This document shows positions 4,369 through 19,006 of a stretch of DNA of 22,322 nucleotides, piece by piece. This DNA comes from a virus, in the IMG/VR virus record IMGVR_UViG_3300046460_000278, positions 1-22,322 of that record; one strand, written 5' to 3'. The position numbers and the translations under genes were made by a program. The notes under the pieces were generated by a model. The model did no database searches. It was not told the DNA's origin and was given only the letters and a program-made list of their open reading frames with translations. Numbering within the stretch: the stretch's first letter is position 1; each line of letters opens with the position of its first letter.

Positions 4369-5664
4369 ATGCACTACTTTAGAAATTTTAAAAATTATTC
4401 AAACGCTCAGATAGACCTGTTCTCTAGTTTTACACTGCTAATCGGAAAGAATGGTAGCGGAAAGTCTAACCTGATCGAAGGTGTGGAACTTCTTGCCGCG
4501 CTTGCTGAAGGACGCCCGCTCCATGAGATGGTCGAGGGAAAAGGCTATGGTGCTAATGCATCTGCAGTGCGTGGCGGCATCCATAGTTGTGTTAAATTTG
4601 GAGAGAAAAATTTCTCTCTAGGGTTTTCAGGTAGTTATAAGTTTGAAGGAAAGGCACAATCATTTGATTATTGTATAACTATCGGAGTTGATCCGTATCC
4701 TTATGTTGTGGGTGAGCATCTGATTGTTGGCTCGAGGAAGATATTTCTGGCGGAGCCTGATGGAGTATCTCGTGACGGCTTGTTGAATGTGCAGTTTGAT
4801 AACTTTGCGCGCGGCGGAAAAAAACCGCAGAAAAAAATATTCGGCGACCGGTCTATAATTTCTCGCTATGAAGAGCTTGTCGAGGCTAGTGAGGCGGGCG
4901 ATAAAGATAGGAAGCTAAAAGCTGTAAAAATGGTAGCGACAATAAAGCGTTATTTGCAATCATCGTTTGTATTTGATCCTAGTCCTAAATTAATGCGCGA
5001 TTACGTTAGGATCGGTCAAAACGTGTTGCTCAAAGATGGATCAAATATTTCCGCTGTACTTTACTCAATGAGGTCGGAATCTGGGGAACTGTCACATCTG
5101 GATAATGTCCTTAATGTGATTCGACAGATTCCGGAAGAACCGTTTCTGGAATTTGATTTTGTAACAACTTCTCGGCATGATGTTTTATTAACACTGATGT
5201 CTGGAGTTAATTCTGTTGATGCTAGGTTGATTTCGGACGGAACTCTGAGGGCGATGGCTGTAATAGCGGCACTTGAATCAATTGGTGAAGGTTCTCGAGT
5301 TGTTATTGAAGAATTTGATAATGGACTACATCCGAGTCGCGCTGCTGTTTTAATTGAGGCTATAGGGGAGGTGGTTGCAAGAAAAAAACTCAACATATTA
5401 CTTTCTACTCATAATCCGGCTAGTTTAAATTCTTTGTCGAGTGAATGGCTTGCAAAGGTCCATGTTTGTTATTGGGATCAAGAGGCTAATTCTTCTAAAT
5501 TGATACGTTTGCTCGACGTCCCAGACGTCGACTCGTTGCTTGAGTCAAAGGGTGGTTTGGGTGATTTGGTAACTCGCTCCGTCTTTGAAAAACATTTGGC
5601 TCCACGCTTTGAGGAAGCAAAGAAAAAAGTAGCCACGGACTGGCTGAGCAGGTTGGGTTCATGA
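4369..5664 (+). CDS. AAA_21-type (ABC/OLD-like) ATPase, putative defence sensor
   Basis: This is a 431-residue SMC/ABC-like P-loop ATPase. It has an N-terminal FRNFKNYSNAQIDL strand, Walker A GKNGSGKS at 26-33, a signature-like ISDGTLRAMAV at 288-298, Walker B VVIEEFDNGLHP at 311-321 and a switch His in LLSTHNP (H348). A variable middle (about 90-280) replaces the SMC coiled coil. The pattern fits the AAA_15/AAA_21 group used as sensors or motors in PARIS, Septu, OLD and retron-linked systems (established for those families). The ATG is the only start after an in-frame stop at 4351 and has a G-rich stretch upstream. The gene is AT-rich relative to its neighbours, reads against the surrounding early operon, and overlaps the PIN gene by 4 bases. 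Its role in phage defence is inferred. Confidence 0.85.
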   Translation: MHYFRNFKNYSNAQIDLFSSFTLLIGKNGSGKSNLIEGVELLAALAEGRPLHEMVEGKGYGANASAVRGGIHSCVKFGEKNFSLGFSGSYKFEGKAQSFDYCITIGVDPYPYVVGEHLIVGSRKIFLAEPDGVSRDGLLNVQFDNFARGGKKPQKKIFGDRSIISRYEELVEASEAGDKDRKLKAVKMVATIKRYLQSSFVFDPSPKLMRDYVRIGQNVLLKDGSNISAVLYSMRSESGELSHLDNVLNVIRQIPEEPFLEFDFVTTSRHDVLLTLMSGVNSVDARLISDGTLRAMAVIAALESIGEGSRVVIEEFDNGLHPSRAAVLIEAIGEVVARKKLNILLSTHNPASLNSLSSEWLAKVHVCYWDQEANSSKLIRLLDVPDVDSLLESKGGLGDLVTRSVFEKHLAPRFEEAKKKVATDWLSRLGS

Positions 5665-6173
5665 GCAAAATTATTCTTCTTGATACTAGTTATCTTCTCG
5701 AGCTATTTAGAGTGCCACACGATTCAGTTGAAGGGCATCATCTGGTCGCAAAAGAGTTAATGACCGAAGCAATTGAGCTTGGGTATGATTTGTACTGCAC
5801 TCTTGGTGTTCTCTACGAGGTTGCGAATCATATCGTGGATGTGAAAAATGTCGAAGTGCAAAGAAGGTTGGCTAGGGAATTTCAAGAGATGGTGACTCTT
5901 GCATGGGAGGAAAACAGTCCGTTTTCAATAGTTCCCAACTCTAGTTCCGCAGAAATTTTGGCGGAGTTTGCCTCGCTTCCTGAACTCTGTGTTAAGTATA
6001 AAGATACTCTTCGGCAAGGTCTGAGTTTGGTGGACTGTACCATCATCGAAGTTGCGTCAAAAATTAAAGTCAACTATGCCGCACGGAAACGGAAATGGGC
6101 GGCGCATATTTGGACTCGACATGGAGAGCTTAAGGCGCTTGAGCCTGACAGATTTCATCATCCCCATTTTTGA
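5661..6173 (+). CDS. PIN-domain nuclease, partner/effector of the ATPase
   Basis: This 170-residue protein has the PIN layout: LLDTSYLLEL at the N-terminus (D8), LYEVANHIV (E53), GLSLVDCTIIEVA (D125, E130) and a terminal strand HIWTRHGELKALEPD. PIN domains are metal-dependent RNases, often toxins. The fourth acidic position, usually Asp in the final T-x-D motif, is His154 here, so activity may be altered or use E130. The ATG overlaps the ATPase stop (ATGA), which implies translational coupling and fixed stoichiometry. There is no small antitoxin beside it, so the ATPase is the likely controller. An ATPase-controlled RNase causing abortive infection is my preferred inference; a conventional VapC toxin is less likely. 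Confidence 0.75.
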   Translation: MSKIILLDTSYLLELFRVPHDSVEGHHLVAKELMTEAIELGYDLYCTLGVLYEVANHIVDVKNVEVQRRLAREFQEMVTLAWEENSPFSIVPNSSSAEILAEFASLPELCVKYKDTLRQGLSLVDCTIIEVASKIKVNYAARKRKWAAHIWTRHGELKALEPDRFHHPHF

Positions 6174-8073: not shown

Positions 8074-8200
8074 GTGCTATTCGCGCTTGTGCGCTGCACC
8101 AGATGCGGGTCGTTACGAAGGGCTCTGGTGCGGGCGTTGCCTACGAAGGGGATCGCAGGCGCACCTAAGGAACAAAGTAAATTTGATCTTGATTAATTGA
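8074..8200 (+). pseudogene. Frameshifted small zinc-ribbon ORF
   Basis: Immediately after DUF1654, one frame encodes LFALVRCTRCGS (CxxC; Cys codons at 8095 and 8104) and a second frame, one base off, encodes YEGLWCGRCLRRGSQAHL (CxxC; Cys codons at 8129 and 8138), ending with a stop at 8198-8200. Adding one base near 8113 would restore a CxxC-x(n)-CxxC zinc-ribbon protein of about 40 residues. The end overlaps the 3' end of the opposing GHKL gene, so the tail may not be original. It could be a true pseudogene or a sequencing error. Confidence 0.4.
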
Positions 8201-10253
8201 CGGTGGAAGACAATTCTGAAACAAGCTCCGATTGGGTGAGGCTCGACAGGTCTTTTCTTTGTGTCTTCAACCTTTCCAACAGAAAGTCACTTGTTAATTT
8301 GAACTCATCGAATATCCTTGGCCAAGTCTTGATGTAGGTTTTTATCTTGTCAGTGTTGTTGACTATTCCTGGCTCACCATGAATTTTGTTTGATTCAATT
8401 CGCTGGTGGATATTAAATGCTTCATCTGAGATGTTTCGACCGATTAAAAGCAGTTCAAATTTTGTAAGATCACTATTAAATGCTGGATATTTACTTAAAA
8501 TTGAAGCGTATCGATCTAGTTGTTGAAGGTGCTTGTCGTTAAGCGATACACCAGGGCGCTTAATTTCGACAATGACGCATCGAAAGTATTGTCTTCCATG
8601 AGAATCGAATTGCGGCTGCCTACGGATTAGCAATAAGTCAACCTGTTTGTTTGCTCCATCAATCGTGACGCCATCAGCCAAATCGCCGACATCGATGCCG
8701 CCGATATCTTTGATTTCTGATCTAAGGTTTTCAGCTATTTTAGTGAAGCTGTCTTCTTCGGCGCCTAGGATTGCGTAAGAAGCGCCGAATAACCAGGTAT
8801 TATTCTCGATTATACCTTGTAGGTGTGGTGTTTCTTTTACGTCCTTATAGTGGACATTCATAATTTCTTCAATTTGAGCTATTGCATGCTCTCGCTTTTG
8901 CAATACTTCGATCGTGTTGATTATGTTTTCGAGTTTTGTTTGTTTCAACTGAGTGGCAAATTTTTTCATAGCGGATGCATCCAAGTCTAGAATGCTTTCA
9001 ATTACATCGAGTATTCCGCTATTTTCGTTGGATACAGACAGTCTGTCCAGTAATCTTATTATTACTTTGCGCTGTTTCTTATTGCTATTAATTAGTAAGG
9101 TTGGTTCTTTTATGATTATGTGTCGAACGATATCTTTAACATAGCTAAGCCGCCATTCCCGCTCCGCCGGTCCAAGCTCGGAGTGATCAGGAAAGTCTCC
9201 TTCGATCTCATACTTCTTAACCTGCTCGTCAGCCTGTTCCACTAGAAATTCAGCATAATTTTTTGCAATCATGCTTTTTACTTCCTTTTCCAGCATGCGA
9301 CCTGCTTTGCTGGATAGGAATGAGTCGAATGGCTCGCTAAGAGCTTCGCTGCCTGGCGTATAGCGGTCAAATATTTCCGATGTAACGTATATGCTTATAT
9401 AATATTCAGGCTTATTATTTCCAGAGCTATGCTTCTTGTGAAGGACTCGCCCGTCTTGGTTTGCGAAATATGTCCAGGATTTATCGTTGCCAGGCTTTTC
9501 GTACCATCGGATCAGTTTAATATCAAAATTTTTGTTTTCTATTGTTACAGGGTGGGCAAATTCTAGGTGACGCGGAGGTTCAATCAATTTTTCGTCTAAC
9601 CAAAGCCGTCTTTGCGGCTTTAGGATAAAGTGAGCTCCGAACTCTTTGCTAAAATCCCTTGCAAGTTCCGAGCTCGGGGGTAGATTTTTGGCGAATTCAA
9701 GGAGCTCTACACATGTGCCTTTTTCGGATCCGGAAAGCAGCGCGTGAGTCGATCCCGGCAAAGCATTTTTTCCGGTAACTTTGCTTAGGTTAGAGCTGCT
9801 TATAGAAATAATAGCGTCTTCGCCCTGGTGTCGTGTATACCATGTGGCTAGATTGCATATTTTACTGAAGCTAAGTCTACCTCTACCATGTGACCCATGA
9901 GTGTCATATGAGGTGACTTTTAAAGAGTCGTTGAAACGCTTAAAGTTATTTGTGGACTTTCGGAACTCGATACCATTCCCGTCGTCCAGGATGGTCACAG
10001 ATTCAGTTCCATCTGCAGCAGTTTCGTGAATCGAAATCCGTACTTCAGTTGCATCAGCATCGAACCCATTCCAGATTAACTCTGCAATCGCCTGCCATGG
10101 CTTTACGTTTTTAAAGTGTTTTGCTATACCGTCATGGGTAATAGTGTTTGAGCCAGAGAAATCATATAAGGAAAATTCCGTTTCCACGACGCTACTCCAA
10201 AGTTCAGAAAGGGATGTGTTAATAGTTATGTTTAAAGCAGGTGAGCATTCCAC
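8193..10253 (-). CDS. GHKL ATPase fused to PD-(D/E)XK (Shedu-like) nuclease
   Basis: This is a 686-residue two-part protein. The N-terminal GHKL (Hsp90/MutL/MORC-type) ATPase shows an N box ELIWNGFDADA (E58, N62, D65), DDGNG at 90-94 and SHGRGRLS at 121-128. A linker of about 250 residues follows, with a likely coiled coil near 430-465. The C-terminus looks like a DUF4263-type PD-(D/E)XK nuclease: IIENNTWLFG (481-490), QVDLLLI (D539), VIVEIKRP (E563, K565) and QQLDRY (577-582). The listed start is GTG at 10253, overlapping the repressor gene by 22 bases. An alternative GTG at 10187 has GGAG 7 bases upstream and keeps every motif. The gene is AT-rich and probably co-transcribed with the repressor. 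Anti-phage function is inferred. Confidence 0.85.
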   Translation of the reverse strand: MECSPALNITINTSLSELWSSVVETEFSLYDFSGSNTITHDGIAKHFKNVKPWQAIAELIWNGFDADATEVRISIHETAADGTESVTILDDGNGIEFRKSTNNFKRFNDSLKVTSYDTHGSHGRGRLSFSKICNLATWYTRHQGEDAIISISSSNLSKVTGKNALPGSTHALLSGSEKGTCVELLEFAKNLPPSSELARDFSKEFGAHFILKPQRRLWLDEKLIEPPRHLEFAHPVTIENKNFDIKLIRWYEKPGNDKSWTYFANQDGRVLHKKHSSGNNKPEYYISIYVTSEIFDRYTPGSEALSEPFDSFLSSKAGRMLEKEVKSMIAKNYAEFLVEQADEQVKKYEIEGDFPDHSELGPAEREWRLSYVKDIVRHIIIKEPTLLINSNKKQRKVIIRLLDRLSVSNENSGILDVIESILDLDASAMKKFATQLKQTKLENIINTIEVLQKREHAIAQIEEIMNVHYKDVKETPHLQGIIENNTWLFGASYAILGAEEDSFTKIAENLRSEIKDIGGIDVGDLADGVTIDGANKQVDLLLIRRQPQFDSHGRQYFRCVIVEIKRPGVSLNDKHLQQLDRYASILSKYPAFNSDLTKFELLLIGRNISDEAFNIHQRIESNKIHGEPGIVNNTDKIKTYIKTWPRIFDEFKLTSDFLLERLKTQRKDLSSLTQSELVSELSSTVN

Positions 10254-11098
10254 ACCAGCAGAACCCGAGCTTGAATGAAGGTTTCATCCGCTCTAATCGT
10301 CTCGGGAGGGTGCTTGGTGTTGTCAGAAATCATTTTTAACCGTTCCTCACCCATCCACTGGAGACGCTTGATGTAGAGGTGCCCCTCCCAAGAAAACATG
10401 TAGATCCCATCCCCAGTGAACTCGCGAATGCTGACGTCGACGAGGAGCGGGTCGCGATGCTTAATCGTTGGCGCCATCGACTGTCCCCAACCTGTCACCA
10501 TCTTAAGGTGAAAGTGTTCCTTGAACTCAACCCCCATCTCACGCAGATGTTGGGGGCTGACACGAACATCCTGAAGCATTTCTGGGTAATCGTGTGGTAT
10601 CTGCCCACCACCCATGGCTGCGCGGACGTCGTAATGTGCGATCCATACTTCGTCACCCATCGCACCGGGGCGGTAGTAATCCAGCTCTATGACACCGCCT
10701 CCGTCATCCGCTTCAGCGGCTGATAGTAACCGCCGACGTGCCTCTTCAGAGAGTCCTTTTCCTTGCTTGGCTAGCATGTTTCGGACGATATCCGCGGCGG
10801 AAGTCCCAAGTTTTTCTGTGCTTTCAGAAACGTTGGTTAGTCCGTGGATTTCTTTAGCCAATCTCTTACTGAATTTTTCGACAGGTACGCCTAGCTGACG
10901 GGAGAGAACGGCAGCGAATTTCGCATTCAAGGGGTTGGTGCCATTCAAATACATCGCAACTGCGGCCGCGGAAATATCCGCAGCCTCCGCAAGGCTCGCC
11001 TGCGTGATCCCGAGAGTATTTTTCTTCGACACGAACAGAGCTTTCGCGGCATCGCACTCAGCCTTCAGCTCCGGTGATAACTCTTTCTTTTTCGTCAT
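10232..11098 (-). CDS. cI: CI-type phage repressor, S24 peptidase fold
   Basis: The protein has 288 residues. An HTH lies at about 30-62 (ITQASLAEAADISAAAVAMY, LNGTNPLNAKFA). The C-terminal LexA/S24 domain at about 150-288 has the catalytic Ser207 in GWGQSMAPTIK and Lys244 in LYIKRLQ. The usual Ala-Gly or Cys-Gly cleavage pair is not evident; AAMGGG (160-165) sits near the expected place, so self-cleavage is uncertain. It reads leftward from an operator cluster and is divergent from cro, the lambda arrangement. There is little leader and no clear ribosome binding site before the ATG, as with lambda cI from PRM. It should keep the prophage silent by binding OR and OL. Confidence 0.92.
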   Translation of the reverse strand: MTKKKELSPELKAECDAAKALFVSKKNTLGITQASLAEAADISAAAVAMYLNGTNPLNAKFAAVLSRQLGVPVEKFSKRLAKEIHGLTNVSESTEKLGTSAADIVRNMLAKQGKGLSEEARRRLLSAAEADDGGGVIELDYYRPGAMGDEVWIAHYDVRAAMGGGQIPHDYPEMLQDVRVSPQHLREMGVEFKEHFHLKMVTGWGQSMAPTIKHRDPLLVDVSIREFTGDGIYMFSWEGHLYIKRLQWMGEERLKMISDNTKHPPETIRADETFIQARVLLVWNAHLL

Positions 11099-12377: not shown

Positions 12378-13749
12378 TCCCTACAGCACCGAGGCTGAAC
12401 ACGGCCTGTTGGGCGCGATGATGCAGCGCCCTGAACTGATCGACTCCCTGAGCGACGATCTATCCCCCGAATCGTTTTACTTCCCGGAAAACGCCGAGGT
12501 GTACCGGGGGATCCTGGCGGTGCGCGCGGCCGGCAAATCCGTCGACTTCCTCACTGTGGGTGACCACGTTGGCGACTTGCCGGGAGGCTCCCCGGCGTTT
12601 GCCTACTGCGCCGAAATCGTAAATGGCACGCCCAGCGTTGCCAGCGCCAAGACCTACGCGGGAATCGTGCGAGAGAGGGCCATCGAGCGGTCTTTGTTTG
12701 ACCTTGGCAGCCAGGCGATGGATATCGCGCACAGCGATCAGGACGTGCAGGCGAAAATCGCCGCCGTCCAGGCGGCGGCCATGGCCATTGATTGCGGATC
12801 GGGTGATGACGACATCGTTAAAGTGGGTGACGTGCTGGCCGACCAACTGGAGGTGTGGCAGGAGCGTCATGATCGTCACGCCCGCGGTGAAACACTGATC
12901 GGCTTATCGACCGGCCTGCGGGACTTAGACGAAAAGCTGGGTGGCCTGCAACGGGATCACCTGTACATCGTTGCTGGCCGTCCCGCCATGGGCAAAACCA
13001 CGCTTGCCATGGGGTTTGTTGTCGAGGCAGCGGTGCGCCAGAGCAAGTCAGCCCTCGTCATCAGCCTGGAGATGAACAAAGGCCAGCTGCTGGACCGGGC
13101 TGTGGCGTCCGAAGGGCGTATTCCGCTCACGTTGGTGAAGAACGGAACGGCGTGCCAGACCCACGGAGCGGAGCTCTCTGCAGCGGCCGGCGTGCTGCGC
13201 CGCGCGCCGCTGTACATCGCTGACCGGGCCGGTTCGTCGATTGGTCGCATCCGCTCGCTGGCCCGCCGCCACAAGATGCGTTATGGCCTGGACCTGCTGA
13301 TGATCGATTACCTGCAGTTGCTGGAAGGCGAGGGCGGCAATCGAACCGAAGAGGTCAGCAGCATCAGCCGTGGCTGCAAGCTACTGGCCAAGGAGCTGGG
13401 CATCCCCGTCGTACTGCTGAGCCAGCTTTCGCGCAAATGCGAAGAGCGCCCGAACAAGCGACCCATCCCCTCGGACTTGAGAGAGTCAGGTGCCATCGAG
13501 CAGGACGCTGACGTGATCCTGTTCGTGTACCGCGACGAGGTCTATTACGAAAACACCGAAGCCAAGGGCATTGCCGAAATCATCATCGGCAAGGGGCGCG
13601 ACATCGAGATGGGCACTGTCCGCACGGCCTTTCTTGGGCAGTACAACCGTTTTGAAAACCTTGCCGCCGGGTGGAAACCAGAGCCGGTTGAGCAACCGGA
13701 AAAGGTCACCAGCCTGGCCAACCGTTACCGAAAAAAGGAATCGTTCTGA
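12370..13749 (+). CDS. dnaB: DnaB-type replicative helicase
   Basis: This 459-residue helicase has the DnaB N-terminal domain at about 1-105 (STEAEHGLLGAMM) and a RecA-like motor domain at about 175-430. Motifs seen are Walker A GRPAMGKT (203-210), H1a-like ISLEMNKGQ (231-239), Walker B LLMIDYLQLL (309-318), SQLSR (351-355) and LRESGAIEQDAD (370-381). The length fits bacterial and phage DnaB. The ATG at 12370 is chosen because GGAGG lies 9 bases upstream. It should unwind DNA ahead of the fork as a hexamer, loaded by the O-like protein. No separate loader gene is present. Its stop overlaps the next ATG by one base. Confidence 0.95.
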   Translation: MRDPYSTEAEHGLLGAMMQRPELIDSLSDDLSPESFYFPENAEVYRGILAVRAAGKSVDFLTVGDHVGDLPGGSPAFAYCAEIVNGTPSVASAKTYAGIVRERAIERSLFDLGSQAMDIAHSDQDVQAKIAAVQAAAMAIDCGSGDDDIVKVGDVLADQLEVWQERHDRHARGETLIGLSTGLRDLDEKLGGLQRDHLYIVAGRPAMGKTTLAMGFVVEAAVRQSKSALVISLEMNKGQLLDRAVASEGRIPLTLVKNGTACQTHGAELSAAAGVLRRAPLYIADRAGSSIGRIRSLARRHKMRYGLDLLMIDYLQLLEGEGGNRTEEVSSISRGCKLLAKELGIPVVLLSQLSRKCEERPNKRPIPSDLRESGAIEQDADVILFVYRDEVYYENTEAKGIAEIIIGKGRDIEMGTVRTAFLGQYNRFENLAAGWKPEPVEQPEKVTSLANRYRKKESF

Positions 13750-13958
13750 TGGACTCTCAGCGACTCGCTGTTCCAAATCCGGCCACCTACCGCTTCGCGG
13801 TGTTCTGCTGCTCTTTCAAGATGGAGTTGGGTAGCACCCCGGACCATGCCTTGGCCCTGTTCGCCGACGAGGCCATGGCCAAGCGTTATGGTGCGTGGAT
13901 GTGGCCTTCAACGTTTGAGGTAGTGGACCGTCTCGCCCAACCGGAGGCGACCGATTGA
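13749..13958 (+). CDS. Small hypothetical protein between helicase and recombinase
   Basis: This is a 69-residue protein with no recognised domain. The middle (FAVFCCSFKMELGSTPDHAL, ALFADEAMAKRYGAWMWP) looks like a compact alpha/beta fold with an aromatic-rich end. It begins on the last base of the helicase gene and ends within the start codon region of the recombinase gene, so it is embedded in a tightly coupled operon. The coding-like composition and both overlaps support translation. Function is unknown. Confidence 0.65.
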   Translation: MDSQRLAVPNPATYRFAVFCCSFKMELGSTPDHALALFADEAMAKRYGAWMWPSTFEVVDRLAQPEATD

Positions 13959-15283
13959 GCACCTTGATCAAGACCCTGACCGTGAAACTGTCAGACGCTG
14001 AGATTCAGCGCAACGCCAGGCTCGAGCATGTGCGTGACCTGCGTGATGCCAGTCACCCCGCGTTGCATTTCCGTTATGCGAAGAATCGCACGCGTGGCTC
14101 CTGGTATCTGCTGAATAAGCGTCAGTGGCACCGCATCGGCGGATTTCCCGACCTGAGCACCAAGCAGGTGGTTGCAGCGTTACCGGCAGTGCGTTTGCGA
14201 GTGGCGGCCGATGGTGCCGCCAGCGTTTCGGGTTGGGTAACCGTCGGCGAACTGCTGGACTGGTTTGGCGATCGCATGGCGCGCTCGCGCGCTCTGTCCG
14301 CCAAGCGCCGTTCCGCGAGCAAGTCAGCCATCAGTTGCCAGCTTAAGCCGCGCCTGGGTGATCTGCTGATTCGTGACGTCAACGCCCAGACCCTGGACAA
14401 GCTGCTGATGTGGCCGGCTCAGGCAGAGTTGTCGCTGTCGTACGTCCAGCAGTTGTACCGACTGCTCGCGGTGGCCTTTCGTCAGGCCCGTAAGCTCGAT
14501 CTGATTCCAGCCAACCCGATGGCGGAGCTCAAGTTCATCAACTTCACGACGGCGCGCATCCTGCCCAAGCCTGCCCGTCTGCGCGATGTCCAGGTGCCCG
14601 AATTGGTGGAGCAGTTGGCGGAGCGATTCGTGACTGCGCCGGGTGACGCCATGCTGGCCCTGATGATGCTGTGCCACGGGACCCGCATTGGCGAAACGCG
14701 TCAGTCGCGCTGGGCCGATATTGCGTTGCCTGAGCGTGAGTGGTACCTGCCGGCCGAGCACACCAAGAGCAAGACCGAGCTGCGGGTGCCACTGACCGAC
14801 CAAGTCTGCGCGTTGCTGCGCCGCTACCGAGAGCGGCAGACCGCGCAAGGTTACGAGGGACCGTTTCTGTTCCCGTCTCGCCGAGGCAAGCCGCTCAGCG
14901 ATAACCAGGCCAGTGCCGTGTTCACCCGATTGGGGCAGGGCGCCTGGACCAGTCACGACCTGCGCAAGGTGGCCCGTACCGCCTGGACTGACCTCGGCGT
15001 CGACGGGCATATCGGCGAGATGCTGTTGAACCACTCCCTGGGCAAGATCGCTTCAACCTACATCAATACCCAGGCCAAGGAGCAGCGTCGGCTAGCGCTG
15101 GTGAAGTGGCACAACTGGTTAGATGAGCGCGGCTTCAAGGCGATTCATGAGCAGACAGGCGCTAGATATGAGGATTCGCAAAACCTCGTAGACGCCTTGA
15201 ACGGCAGCGTCTGCGAGTCGATCCCGCAATTTGTTAAGGGCGAGGTTTTAAACCATGCAGAAAAGACCAATGCCTGGCTTTGA
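13955..15283 (+). CDS. Second tyrosine recombinase, in the replication module
   Basis: This is a 442-residue recombinase with all catalytic residues: R244 (CHGTRIGETR), K271/K273 (HTKSKTELR), H334 and R337 (SHDLRKVAR), H360 (LLNHSLG) and Y369 (STYIN). N-terminal residues 36-65 look like an arm-binding domain (FRYAKNRTRGSWYLLNKRQW) and about 95-190 like the core-binding domain. It differs clearly from the 349-residue integrase at the left end. The TTG start is supported by GGAGG 8 bases upstream. It sits between the replication genes and the antiterminator and would be expressed in lytic growth, so its job may be excision, dimer resolution or inversion rather than lysogenic integration. Confidence 0.9.
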   Translation: MSTLIKTLTVKLSDAEIQRNARLEHVRDLRDASHPALHFRYAKNRTRGSWYLLNKRQWHRIGGFPDLSTKQVVAALPAVRLRVAADGAASVSGWVTVGELLDWFGDRMARSRALSAKRRSASKSAISCQLKPRLGDLLIRDVNAQTLDKLLMWPAQAELSLSYVQQLYRLLAVAFRQARKLDLIPANPMAELKFINFTTARILPKPARLRDVQVPELVEQLAERFVTAPGDAMLALMMLCHGTRIGETRQSRWADIALPEREWYLPAEHTKSKTELRVPLTDQVCALLRRYRERQTAQGYEGPFLFPSRRGKPLSDNQASAVFTRLGQGAWTSHDLRKVARTAWTDLGVDGHIGEMLLNHSLGKIASTYINTQAKEQRRLALVKWHNWLDERGFKAIHEQTGARYEDSQNLVDALNGSVCESIPQFVKGEVLNHAEKTNAWL

Positions 15284-15569
15284 GCGGGAACGGATCGAGC
15301 TGGAGCAATGCTCGATCTGCAAGGGGAAAGCAGTAATAAAGGGGGTGTTTTATGAGCTGGCTTGCACTGATTGCAACGGCTCAGGTTGGGTTATTGGAGG
15401 TAGCAAGTTGGTGCTTTCTTCAGACGAGTTGGTTACCCAATTGAGCTTCAAGCTGCAGCAGGCGCAGCGTGAGATTGCGGCATTGAAAGGTCCGGCCAAG
15501 ATACACAAGCCAAAACATGAACAATCGAACCGCCTGGGGGCGGGCGGCACAAATTACACAGGGGATTGA
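15255..15569 (+). CDS. Zinc-finger-like small phage protein
   Basis: Residues 19-44 of this 104-residue protein carry a CxxC-x14-CxxCxGxG element (CSICKG, then CTDCNGSGW), similar to one DnaJ-type zinc repeat, so one metal site is likely. A short coiled coil follows at about 57-76 (LVTQLSFKLQQAQREIAALK), then a basic tail. It overlaps the end of the recombinase gene by 29 bases, with AAGGGCGAGG upstream of the ATG. Such proteins are common before the antiterminator in Pseudomonas phages as I recall; the role is unknown, possibly nucleic-acid binding or assembly. Confidence 0.7.
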   Translation: MQKRPMPGFERERIELEQCSICKGKAVIKGVFYELACTDCNGSGWVIGGSKLVLSSDELVTQLSFKLQQAQREIAALKGPAKIHKPKHEQSNRLGAGGTNYTGD

Positions 15570-15573
15570 GAGC

Positions 15574-15963
15574 ATGATGATTCGCAAGCCGGCAGGCCGA
15601 CCGTTGGGTGACACTGAGTATCTGCTTGAGCAGTGGGGGTGGTGGCGGATGGATGGAATGGGGGTTCCTGGTTTTACGAACCCAACCTTAGCGCTGATGC
15701 GCCAAGCGGTAGTCCAGCCGTCTGCAAGTAAGAATTACTGCATTACCGACGACTGGGCTATTGCTATCGACAATGCCGTAGCCCGACTAGCGCATCGGGA
15801 CCAGCAGATGGGAGACGTAGTGTGGTTATATTTTGGAGCCAAATGGCCGATGGTTCGTGTTGGCAAGCACTATGGGATGAGTGAAGGTAAAGCGCGTGAA
15901 TTGGTCAGAGCAGGTGCAGCATGGATTGATTGTGCTATTGATGACTTTCGATTGGCTGCATAA
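15574..15963 (+). CDS. Q: Q-type late antitermination protein
   Basis: This 129-residue protein fits the phage antiterminator Q family (PF06530-like): LLEQWGWWRMDGMGVPGF near the N-terminus, DDWAIAIDNAVARLAHRDQQ in the middle and a C-terminal HTH-like segment VGKHYGMSEGKARELVRAGA ending in AAWIDCAID. Q proteins bind at the late promoter and let RNA polymerase read through terminators into lysis and head genes. The start is one of two adjacent ATGs (15574/15577) just after the previous stop, with GGGGA and GAGAG upstream. Position at the end of the early operon, followed by tandem terminators and then holin and terminase, supports the call. Confidence 0.8.
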   Translation: MMIRKPAGRPLGDTEYLLEQWGWWRMDGMGVPGFTNPTLALMRQAVVQPSASKNYCITDDWAIAIDNAVARLAHRDQQMGDVVWLYFGAKWPMVRVGKHYGMSEGKARELVRAGAAWIDCAIDDFRLAA

Positions 15964-15977
15964 CTATGAGTTTCTGA

Positions 15978-16011
15978 TAAAAAGTGAAAAGCTGCCGGGT
16001 GTCCGGCAGCT
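15978..16011 (-). terminator. Terminator of the HEPN gene
   Basis: AGCTGCCGG (15990-15998) and CCGGCAGCT (16003-16011) form a perfect 9-bp GC-rich stem with a GTGT loop. On the minus strand it begins 4 bases after the HEPN stop codon and is followed by TTTCACTTTTT. On the plus strand no T tail follows, so Q transcripts would be affected less. Confidence 0.75.
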
Positions 16012-16015
16012 GGAG

Positions 16016-17554
16016 TTACTCGGATTTCGAGGGTGTGGGGACTGGTGACTTTCGCATATCCCTAAAGGCTTTATCTTCGTCTTTGCCACTGTAGGAGTTT
16101 AGCTCCATGGCTGCGCAAAAAAGAACGTCGCGGACTATTTGTTCAGAGAGTTTTCGGATTTCAGAATAAGAGTTAAGTCGATCGTATTGGGTGCCATGCA
16201 GTATTTTTGAGCGACCTGCGTTATAAACATCTTCAATCAATTTTCTTAGTGTTCTTGGGTTTGTACCTTTTGTCACGATTTTGTCTTGGGGAGTATCTAA
16301 TAGGTTGGACGTCATATCAAGAATACCACCGGCTTTTCCGCCATTACACAACACGTCCAAGCTTGTTCCCATTTTTGCGACTGCGATGGCGTCGCTAGTT
16401 TCACGGCAACCCTCCGCGTACCAGTCAAGTGCTGTGGCCCAGCGATTCGAGAGTTCCGGGTGAGCACTGGAACTTGGGTCACTTATCGCGGTGAGTATCT
16501 TGGCTACGGCTGCAATATAAGGCGCTATTGATGCTGCTGCTCTTTGCGCCTTTGTAGCGGGAATGTTGCGAATCATTTTTCCTAAAGACATTCCGGGAAG
16601 GCTGTCGAATATGCCATTTTTACTCGTGATGGTAGTTTTGCTAACTGCTGGGAGACGCTCTCCATTGAGCGTTTGTTGGAAGAAATAATTTGGTGAATTA
16701 AGTCCTAATGAAATTGCATCCAAGGCTGACTTGGCTATAATTTCAGCCAGTTTTCTTGACATTTCACGCTCATAACCATCGATAGTTACACTAACAATAG
16801 CTGGGTGTCTTGCAATTGATTCATATATTGTGTTGGTGAAGAAACCACCTTTGGGAGCAGGGCTTTTTGGATCTTTCAATATGTCTTTTATATCCTCCCT
16901 CCAACTGGAGTTTTCATTAGGGTTTCCATTTGAGTCTATTTTTTGGGATTCTGGGAGATCGATTGAGTCAAGCCAGTCAAATCGATTTTGAATTGTTACT
17001 GGTCCTATGGTGTAAGCTGTTTCAGCTTCAATCCCTAATGTCCCCGCAGGAAAGTGGTGTGTGAGTTTTGAAACTCTATTTGTTACAAGTTTTTCAACTC
17101 TTTCTGTTAATTCATTTTTTAGATCTAATCCTTCTTTTAGAGAAAGTCGACTTGCTGCGCCGTTTACGTATAGTTCGGATATCTCTTGGTGGACAAATTT
17201 GTAGTACAGCTCTTTGTCTACGCGTATGGGGCTTTTTCGGTTGATATGCAGTAGGTGTGTAATATTAACTATAAGTGAGTTTGCCTTGCTGCTGAAGTTC
17301 ACAACTCCTTTTGAAGTTGTTGTGAAGTTGAGTGCGATAGCGGCATATGCTGTAGGGTCGCTTGTGACTGATACCTTGTGAATGATATCCATTTCATTGA
17401 AAAACTCTCTTATTGTTTCCAGAAGATCCATGTTTTGCTCGCGCTTTTTGATTGGTAATTTATAAGTTGTTGAAAGTCGTACGTGGGCGTCCTTTTGAGC
17501 AATAGCAGACTGCTCTCCAATGTGAGGTGCCGCGGATTCAATTTTGAAGGACAC
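16016..17554 (-). CDS. HEPN-domain (Apea-like) protein, putative abortive-infection RNase
   Basis: This is a 512-residue protein. The C-terminal third (about 370-485) is helical and contains YNAGRSKILHGTQYDRL with R448-x4-H453, the HEPN RNase signature; the layout resembles Apea-like HEPN proteins. The first 350 residues match nothing I recognise and may be the sensor. The start at 17554 is GTG with no clear ribosome binding site; ATG at 17431 (residue 42) is an alternative that keeps all domains. TATAAA at 17605-17600 is a plausible -10 for its own promoter. It is AT-rich, reads against the late genes, and has its own terminator, all marks of a cargo gene. RNase activity and defence are inferred. 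Confidence 0.72.
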   Translation of the reverse strand: MSFKIESAAPHIGEQSAIAQKDAHVRLSTTYKLPIKKREQNMDLLETIREFFNEMDIIHKVSVTSDPTAYAAIALNFTTTSKGVVNFSSKANSLIVNITHLLHINRKSPIRVDKELYYKFVHQEISELYVNGAASRLSLKEGLDLKNELTERVEKLVTNRVSKLTHHFPAGTLGIEAETAYTIGPVTIQNRFDWLDSIDLPESQKIDSNGNPNENSSWREDIKDILKDPKSPAPKGGFFTNTIYESIARHPAIVSVTIDGYEREMSRKLAEIIAKSALDAISLGLNSPNYFFQQTLNGERLPAVSKTTITSKNGIFDSLPGMSLGKMIRNIPATKAQRAAASIAPYIAAVAKILTAISDPSSSAHPELSNRWATALDWYAEGCRETSDAIAVAKMGTSLDVLCNGGKAGGILDMTSNLLDTPQDKIVTKGTNPRTLRKLIEDVYNAGRSKILHGTQYDRLNSYSEIRKLSEQIVRDVLFCAAMELNSYSGKDEDKAFRDMRKSPVPTPSKSE

Positions 17555-17646
17555 CTACGAAAGACGCAAAAAAGGTTTTCCGCACGGAATAGATCTGTTT
17601 TTATAGCAGCGTGTATTGCTGTGAACGCAGCGTGACGCCTTTCAAG

Positions 17647-17672
17647 AACCCGGCCTTTGAGTCGGGTTTTTT
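17647..17672 (+). terminator. Terminator before late genes, first of two
   Basis: AACCCG (17647-17652) pairs with CGGGTT (17663-17668) and six Ts follow or overlap. It stands upstream of the holin gene on the late strand and is a candidate for the Q-responsive tR'-like terminator. Confidence 0.7.
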
Positions 17673-17684
17673 GTGCCCATTTAC

Positions 17685-17715
17685 AAGCCCTGCCAGTGAG
17701 CGGGGCTTTTTTTTT
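17685..17715 (+). terminator. Terminator before late genes, second of two
   Basis: AAGCCC (17685-17690) pairs with GGGCTT (17703-17708), with one mismatched pair inside the stem, followed by an uninterrupted run of Ts. Tandem terminators here would keep lysis genes silent until antitermination. Confidence 0.75.
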
Positions 17716-17788
17716 CGGCCCCATGCCTGGCTCTTTGCTTCAAGCGGATGCCAGTGACATGGAGGCCGGACCTATTCGAGGACTACAG

Positions 17789-18112
17789 ATGAACACTGAG
17801 CACCAGGCTCTTGCTGATGTGCCCCTATGGCTGTTGGTGTTGTTGAGCATGGCCGGTTTGTCAGGGGAAATGCTGAGGGCATCGGGTACCGACCTTGGGC
17901 TTCGACAGATCCTGCAGCGCGTAGCGCTGCGCTTTCTTGCGTCTGGTTTATTGGGTATGGCCACGCTACTGCTCGCTATGGCTCTGTGGACCAACCTCTA
18001 TCTAGCTGCTGGCTTAGGCATCGTTACTGCGGTGATCGGTGCAGACGTCGCGGGCGGTCTTTACACCCAGTTCCTGGCTAAGAAAGCCGGTATTAACTCC
18101 CGTAACTCCTAG
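17789..18112 (+). CDS. Phage holin (pyocin-type)
   Basis: This 107-residue membrane protein has the N-terminus MNTEHQALADVPLWLLVLLS, very close to the holin of Pseudomonas R/F-type pyocin clusters as I remember it. Three hydrophobic segments (about 12-29, 48-67 and 72-92) and a basic tail (FLAKKAGINSR) fit a holin that opens the inner membrane for endolysin. The start at 17789 is chosen for GAGGA 6 bases upstream; an upstream in-frame start would run through the terminator region. It is the first late gene after the terminators. No endolysin gene appears next to it; it is probably further right, outside the window. Confidence 0.88.
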   Translation: MNTEHQALADVPLWLLVLLSMAGLSGEMLRASGTDLGLRQILQRVALRFLASGLLGMATLLLAMALWTNLYLAAGLGIVTAVIGADVAGGLYTQFLAKKAGINSRNS

Positions 18113-18127
18113 GGAGGTGAGGGGGAA

Positions 18128-18865
18128 ATGTTCAAACTCGACATCGGCGTCAATGACGGACCGCTGACTAAGTCAGCGATGGAGTTGCAGCAGCGGCATA
18201 TCCCCTTTGCGTTGACCCTAACGGCGACGCGGCTAGCCCAGAGGGTCAAGAAGGGCGAACTGGCGGTGCTGAAACAGCGTTTGGATCGGCCGACCCCTAC
18301 CACGCTCAATAGCCTGTTTGTGAAAATGGCCAGCAAGGGCAAGCCCGCGCAGGTCTATTTCAAGGACCAATGGACGTCAGGCATACCCGCCGACACCTAC
18401 CTACAACAGGCAGTATTCGGTGGCTTGCGGCCACATAAGCGCTTTGAAAAATCGCTGATAGCACGCGGCATCATGCGGGCAGGCCAGTACGCGCTGCCCT
18501 CGGCGTCGTTCCTCAACCAGTATGGCAACGTATCGCGAGGGACGATGACCAAGGTGCTATCAGGTTTGGGGGCGGCCGAGTCTGGTCGCGGCTATGCGGC
18601 CAACGCCACGGACAGCAGGCGCAGTATGAGCAAGGGCAATAGGCGCTTCTTTGGTGGTGTGGTCGGTGATGAGTCGGGTGTCTGGGAGCGAATGAATACG
18701 AAGTGGGGCGATGCTGTTCGGCCCGTATTCATCTTCAGCGATGGCTCGCCGGGTTATCGCACCATCTTCCCGTTCTTCAAGATCGCGGAAAACATCGTCA
18801 AGGCCAATAAGGACCGTGAGTTTGCCGGCGCGCTGGCCGACACCATGGCCACGCCTAGGCCTTGA
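18128..18865 (+). CDS. Conserved phage protein, possible minor tail/virion protein
   Basis: This is a 245-residue basic protein following an ideal ribosome binding site (GGAGGTGA, 7 bases before the ATG). Segments such as GIMRAGQYALPSASFLNQYG, NVSRGTMTKVLSGL and RRFFGGVVGDESGVWERMN recall phage minor tail protein Z-like or head-completion proteins. I am not certain of the family. It lies between the holin and the terminase genes, an unusual place for a tail protein but one I recall for this family in Pseudomonas phages. No membrane segment or catalytic motif is visible. Confidence 0.65.
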   Translation: MFKLDIGVNDGPLTKSAMELQQRHIPFALTLTATRLAQRVKKGELAVLKQRLDRPTPTTLNSLFVKMASKGKPAQVYFKDQWTSGIPADTYLQQAVFGGLRPHKRFEKSLIARGIMRAGQYALPSASFLNQYGNVSRGTMTKVLSGLGAAESGRGYAANATDSRRSMSKGNRRFFGGVVGDESGVWERMNTKWGDAVRPVFIFSDGSPGYRTIFPFFKIAENIVKANKDREFAGALADTMATPRP

Positions 18866-18954
18866 GCCGTCACCCCCGAAAAAAGATCGAATAAAGCCGG
18901 TCTTCGTGCATTTTTCGCTTGACGGTCGTGGTTTGGTCGGAGCTGGCCCGTGGG

Positions 18955-19006
18955 CAATGGGTCCTCCCGGTGGGGTGGGGCATAGGGGGTAATTCGGGCC
19001 CCGCTC
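18955..19006 (+). other. Candidate cos site
   Basis: This is a G/C-rich block just upstream of the terminase small subunit gene, containing GGGTCCTCCCGG and an interrupted stem GGGG-TAATTCG-GGCCCC. Similar sequence stands before DUF1441-type terminase genes in other prophages as I recall. Lambda-type terminases cut at cos immediately upstream of their own genes, so position fits. The cut points cannot be read from this sequence. Confidence 0.4.

Follow-up and report, generated by a model that had tools for sequence, protein, structure and literature searches.

In the published description of the HEPN superfamily, helix 3 ends in an Rx4-6H motif, the residue after the arginine is polar, mostly N, D or H, and helix 2 carries a conserved acidic residue, usually in an Ex3[KR] arrangement (PMC3710099). 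Metal-independent RNase activity is a further mark of the superfamily. The nearest system that has been worked out is Tha, a defence system of Staphylococcus aureus prophages, whose HEPN protein is activated by a phage tail protein; when the prophage is induced, an antisense gene shuts the protein off (PMC11087260). Tha-1 has 301 aa, is controlled by the cI promoter and is overlapped by its antisense inhibitor gene (PMC11087260). As it is described, Tha resembles the cargo protein reported here in being the product of a single prophage gene, with a HEPN R-x4-H motif in the C-terminal part and a poorly recognised N-terminus (PMC11087260). The cargo protein, a likeness to Tha being drawn from that description, is longer than Tha-1 (471 aa) and is encoded in a slot between the antiterminator gene Q and the late block, where the ORF listing gives no inhibitor gene like that of Tha. 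Tab, from the Pseudomonas aeruginosa phage JBD26, is a prophage defence gene located on the minus strand among late genes and has its own promoter (PMC10884400). The cargo gene is also a minus-strand prophage gene, but Tab is an 83-aa tail-assembly blocker, which has an anti-Tab partner and lies between terminase genes (PMC10884400).

ApeA and the Apea-like HEPN proteins share with the cargo protein a large N-terminal part followed by a C-terminal HEPN domain with an RxxxxHG motif, and a preliminary description of this DNA called the protein Apea-like. The profiles do not support this name. HEPN_Apea gives no match at E<=1 in the cargo protein and ten members of its homologue alignment (A1), nor at E<=10 in the 11 rows of the domain alignment, and ApeA_NTD matches neither the cargo protein nor the A1 homologues. 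BLASTP and a profile comparison with a single-sequence template detect no similarity to the true ApeA that occupies this slot in contig L027. Membership of ApeA (PF18739 and PF18862) is rejected on both grounds, although the cargo protein may function like ApeA despite this result.

The window, which is the whole stretch of DNA analysed, is a 22-kb virus record, a prophage of a Pseudomonas-like bacterium. The module inserted after Q probably is mobile prophage cargo that encodes a putative stand-alone HEPN ribonuclease, which would protect the lysogen by abortive infection; the abortive-infection role is a plausible inference. The features of the locus are the following:

15517 to 15963, plus strand: Q antiterminator, with a conserved start at 15574
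15964 to 17565, no strand: inserted cargo module, which begins just past the stop codon of Q and reaches approximately to the late block
15990 to 16011, minus strand: intrinsic terminator of the cargo gene, with a 9-pair stem and a T-rich tail
16016 to 17431, minus strand: likely cargo CDS, 471 aa from ATG 17431, indicated by the phrog_38039 match, homologue alignments and signs of purifying selection
16019 to 16564, minus strand: predicted C-terminal HEPN domain, residues 290-471, in which R407-S408-x3-H412-G413 ends helix 395-412
16565 to 17431, minus strand: N-terminal region (residues 1-289), which the full model shows as alpha/beta
17566 to 17646, plus strand: block conserved across the alignment of 70 gaps, probably the late promoter or Q-response region (putative function)
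17647 to 17672, plus strand: first late terminator, AACCCG...CGGGTT followed by a T run, read from the sequence and conserved
17685 to 17708, plus strand: second late terminator
17789 to 18112, plus strand: holin, superfamily III

The limits of the insertion come from two empty sites, L020 (JBD68) and L021 (PseuP_224), which have a related Q and late block without cargo: the module fills the interval between the stop codon of Q, which it follows directly, and the conserved block. In all 30 of the phage records listed among 40 matches, the two matched pieces, which extend from Q to beyond the block, fit within about 460-540 bp. The module is poor in GC, as had been proposed, with 0.39-0.41 over 16501-17500 versus 0.52-0.65 over 13001-16000 and 0.53-0.60 over 17501-19000 in windowed counts. 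The same description gave the gene its own terminator and a likely promoter. The terminator is found, its counterpart adjoins the homologue in L002 and it is missing from the two empty sites, while a consensus scan of the minus strand upstream of the gene gives no sigma-70-like promoter. A direct repeat, GCAGCGTG, occurs within the late block at 17606-17613 and 17627-17634, 21 bases from start to start, is kept across 70 loci and is a candidate Q-binding element. On the other side of the slot, a second integrase-family recombinase (13955-15283) is located between a helicase-like gene and Q, and PseuP_224 has the same arrangement.

The gene had also been said to face against the late genes, which is correct for its strand and incorrect for a position in the late transcript. 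Because the conserved late block follows the cargo gene and lies between it and the holin gene, the late transcript should start beyond the cargo gene and would not cross it, and antisense transcription of the cargo by the late operon is rejected for the same reason. Early transcripts that run past Q would cross the cargo gene in antisense and could, as a speculation, lower its expression at induction; many cargo genes of this slot face the other way.

From 146 holin relatives and 317 Q relatives in viral contigs, the best 80 of each were taken for a survey of the slot. Both Q and holin are present in 124 loci (the window included, with many contigs occurring twice), which correspond to 79 distinct gap sequences. 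The late block is kept in 70 of these 79 gaps; by a hand count from the census table, a 58-base block stands 144-153 bases before holin in 68 of them, at 265 in L061 and at 124 in L024, and in the remaining nine gaps Q is divergent (34-64%) and the block is missing from that place. Across the 70 gaps, the spacing from Q to the block goes from 44 to 3444 bases, and in their alignment (Q identity of at least 70%) conservation rises near window position 17566 and continues through the two terminators to holin. One gap, that of L023/L108, is empty. In every one of the 69 gaps of at least 900 bases, the cargo has a lower GC than its flanks (medians of 0.43 and 0.57), and the largest cargo ORF has the late direction in 49 of 78 gaps and the opposite direction in 29. 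The census thus supports the earlier proposal of cargo in the gap between Q and the terminators: the interval is a variable cargo slot in this phage group. It is not described as a defence hotspot in the titles and abstract openings of the open-access papers that the literature searches listed.

Other cargo of the slot was scanned in 45 representative proteins, eight of 53 being left out. PADLOC models of the OLD, AriA and GajA types match four members at E<=0.001, and Pfam finds AAA_15 in four, GmrSD_N in two, and ApeA_NTD1, HEPN_Apea, NACHT, nSTAND1 and DUF4238 once each. The slot of L027 has a true ApeA (NTD1 6e-17, HEPN 2e-7), with a protein of the same cluster in L070. Among cargo proteins scanned singly, Pfam matches five and leaves five of ten without a match, and in another ten PADLOC matches four and leaves six; PDC-S49, at 1.5e-142, is the sole strong match of that PADLOC set. 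With so many proteins unmatched, the slot may carry more than defence genes. Five cargo proteins (L078, L060, L035, L056 and L075) carry an R-N-x3-H motif and possibly represent further HEPN families; no Pfam HEPN model matches those that were scanned, L056 being represented by its cluster mate in L048.

The most probable alternative, though still unlikely, is that the gene is a moron unconnected with defence, coding for an RNase of growth arrest or stress that adjusts the physiology of the host or its lysogeny. The cargo of the slot is diverse and largely unannotated, and some of the sister cargo families are DUFs, as this alternative would have it, but among the recognisable cargo there are several defence families, named or candidate. 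The scan covered slot cargo alone, and enrichment of the slot for defence is for this reason an impression.

The cargo gene was read from a minus-strand ORF at 16016-17554, which is present in the ORF listing and has 512 codons when counted from GTG 17554. ATG 17431 is most likely the start because the best homologues align from residue 38-42 or so; it is residue 42 of the GTG numbering and opens a conserved MxL start, and GTG 17554 is rejected as a start on the same alignments. A chance ORF is ruled out by a match to phrog_38039 at 2e-69, by homologues at 21-71% identity and by a dN of 0.21 versus a dS of about 2, near saturation, in the comparison with the roughly 70% identical homologue in L002, and from these substitution values the gene is judged to be under purifying selection. 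In phrog_38039, which is the family of the cargo protein itself and which the homologue in L183 matches at 1.9e-115, the annotation is function unknown, without a HEPN assignment. Nothing in Pfam, PADLOC or NCBIfam exceeds family cut-offs for the cargo protein.

Homologues found by tblastn are located in phage and plasmid records, in one genome contig and in viral contigs. The family is sparse, since only three of 369 surveyed genomes are matched, counting the centre genome and a probably spurious match (G141). The homologue in Trinickia adjoins an integrase gene and a guaA-like gene, these neighbours being read from translations, and the homologue in Acinetobacter phage vB_AbaSI_5, annotated as "HEPN domain-containing", lies between minor capsid and DUF2213 genes in the head-gene region, where two relatives of this phage have other small genes. 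Such occupation of unrelated slots is consistent with movement of the gene from phage to phage as cargo. A divergent homologue (L180:1432-2805) is found beside a gene that, read from its translation, resembles a DNA methyltransferase.

These neighbourhoods bear on a second alternative, in which the protein would serve as the toxin in an addiction or toxin-antitoxin pair and so keep the prophage stable. Its partner would be encoded elsewhere or be an antitoxin RNA acting in cis, and defence would be a secondary effect. HEPN domains are described as common toxins of such modules, as in HEPN/MNT (PMC7641770). However, little of the slot is left beside the 471-aa gene and its terminator, the ORF listing has no second gene there and hence no MNT antitoxin gene adjoins the cargo gene, and the neighbours are unrelated at the two homologous loci that were looked at, so that an addiction toxin is quite improbable. 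The place of the gene between Q and the late block would also suit a phage self-regulator that cleaves Q or late transcripts and delays lysis. This is very unlikely, as sister phages with Q and the late block do not have the gene (L020, L021 and L023) and homologues occupy other phage slots, such as the head-gene region of the Acinetobacter phage.

The preferred reading is that of a defensive HEPN ribonuclease. In the C-terminal domain, both the motif and the predicted fold, the latter named beforehand as a check on the proposal, agree with the HEPN type proposed in the preliminary description. R-x4-H occurs once in the ORF, as R448/H453 in the GTG numbering, which correspond to R407/H412 in the ATG numbering. 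These two residues, whose conservation had been singled out as a further check, belong to a GRSxIxHG motif. Its R, S, H and G are shared by every row of two homologue alignments (10 of 10 in A1 and 10 of 10 in A2), and the motif GRSxIxHG is invariant in the domain alignment (A5, 11 of 11 rows), with identity to the window protein as low as 21%; the rows are partly dependent, and L002 and L003 are near copies. The motif closes helix 395-412, the third of the C-terminal bundle, which is its place in the HEPN superfamily. The residue after the arginine is Ser in 11 of 11 rows, which is polar and outside the usual N/D/H, and helix 2 has an invariant D347 and a conserved K353 with a spacing that differs from Ex3[KR]. 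Weak matches to the Pfam family MauJ appear in three of the 11 domain rows (best 1.2e-4).

The whole-protein model has a pLDDT of 80.3 and the C-terminal part modelled alone reaches 90.3, with helices at 36-54, 58-73, 78-89, 106-123 and 134-157, of which 106-123 is closed by the motif. In VIA-align, the C-terminal model is best matched by 4nqf (Z 10.3, rmsd 3.8, 121 aligned), and also by 1ufb, an unnamed Thermus protein (Z 10.1), 2hsb (Z 9.2, rmsd 3.0, 106 aligned), the HEPN domain of sacsin, 3o10 (Z 8.8, rmsd 3.1, 110 aligned), TtCsm6, 8jbc (Z 8.5, rmsd 3.4, 110 aligned) and HEPN-MNT, 8xeh (Z 8.1, rmsd 2.6, 102 aligned). The first plainly unrelated row is a designed minibinder at Z 6.6. Helical bundles may reach middling Z by chance, and the case for the fold is that solved HEPN proteins occupy the top rows; the two leading entries for the whole model are both Csm6 (Z 7.6 and 5.6). 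Foldseek gives no match at E<=0.001 for the whole model (PDB, BFVD) or the C-terminal model, and a sequence search against the PDB gives no helpful match. The modelling thus supports a HEPN fold for the C-terminal bundle. A HEPN fold without nuclease function, as in a binding or scaffold protein, is highly improbable. The motif is described as lost in some HEPN proteins (PMC3710099), but its R, S, H and G are here invariant down to 21% identity.

The N-terminal residues, about 290, match no family in any database searched and are presumed to be a sensor or regulatory part. For the abortive-infection ribonuclease, the following mechanism may be proposed. The lysogen, if it expresses the gene, would make the HEPN protein in an inactive form. 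The N-terminal region would sense a product of the infecting phage, as the HEPN class suggests, and release the C-terminal domain. The released domain, probably as a dimer, would cut RNA through R407 and H412, and the cell would halt. If this is correct, a catalytic function could be assigned to phrog_38039, a phage gene family of function unknown, together with an active site open to testing.

A broader reading, somewhat short of an even chance, is that in Pseudomonas-type lambdoid prophages the interval from the Q stop codon to the late promoter is a dedicated hypervariable defence bay of AT-rich and mostly undescribed one- or two-gene systems, with the window gene among them as an unnamed HEPN system that has a 290-residue sensor of an undescribed type. 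The P2 and P4 hotspots of E. coli, described as sources of defence systems, are the precedent (PMC9122126), and the slot would then be a fixed address yielding dozens of candidate defence systems from Pseudomonas prophages.

Elsewhere in the window, an AAA ATPase and a PIN-domain protein are encoded as a pair at 4369-6173, which corresponds to the PADLOC candidate PDC-M07A/B (2.9e-102 and 4.6e-32) and is a candidate second defence locus of the same prophage. On the minus strand, 8193-10253 encodes a GHKL-type ATPase protein of 686 aa (phrog_6203), one stretch of which weakly resembles HSDR_N; this gene overlaps the end of a repressor-like gene (10232-11098) and is possibly lysogenically expressed cargo.
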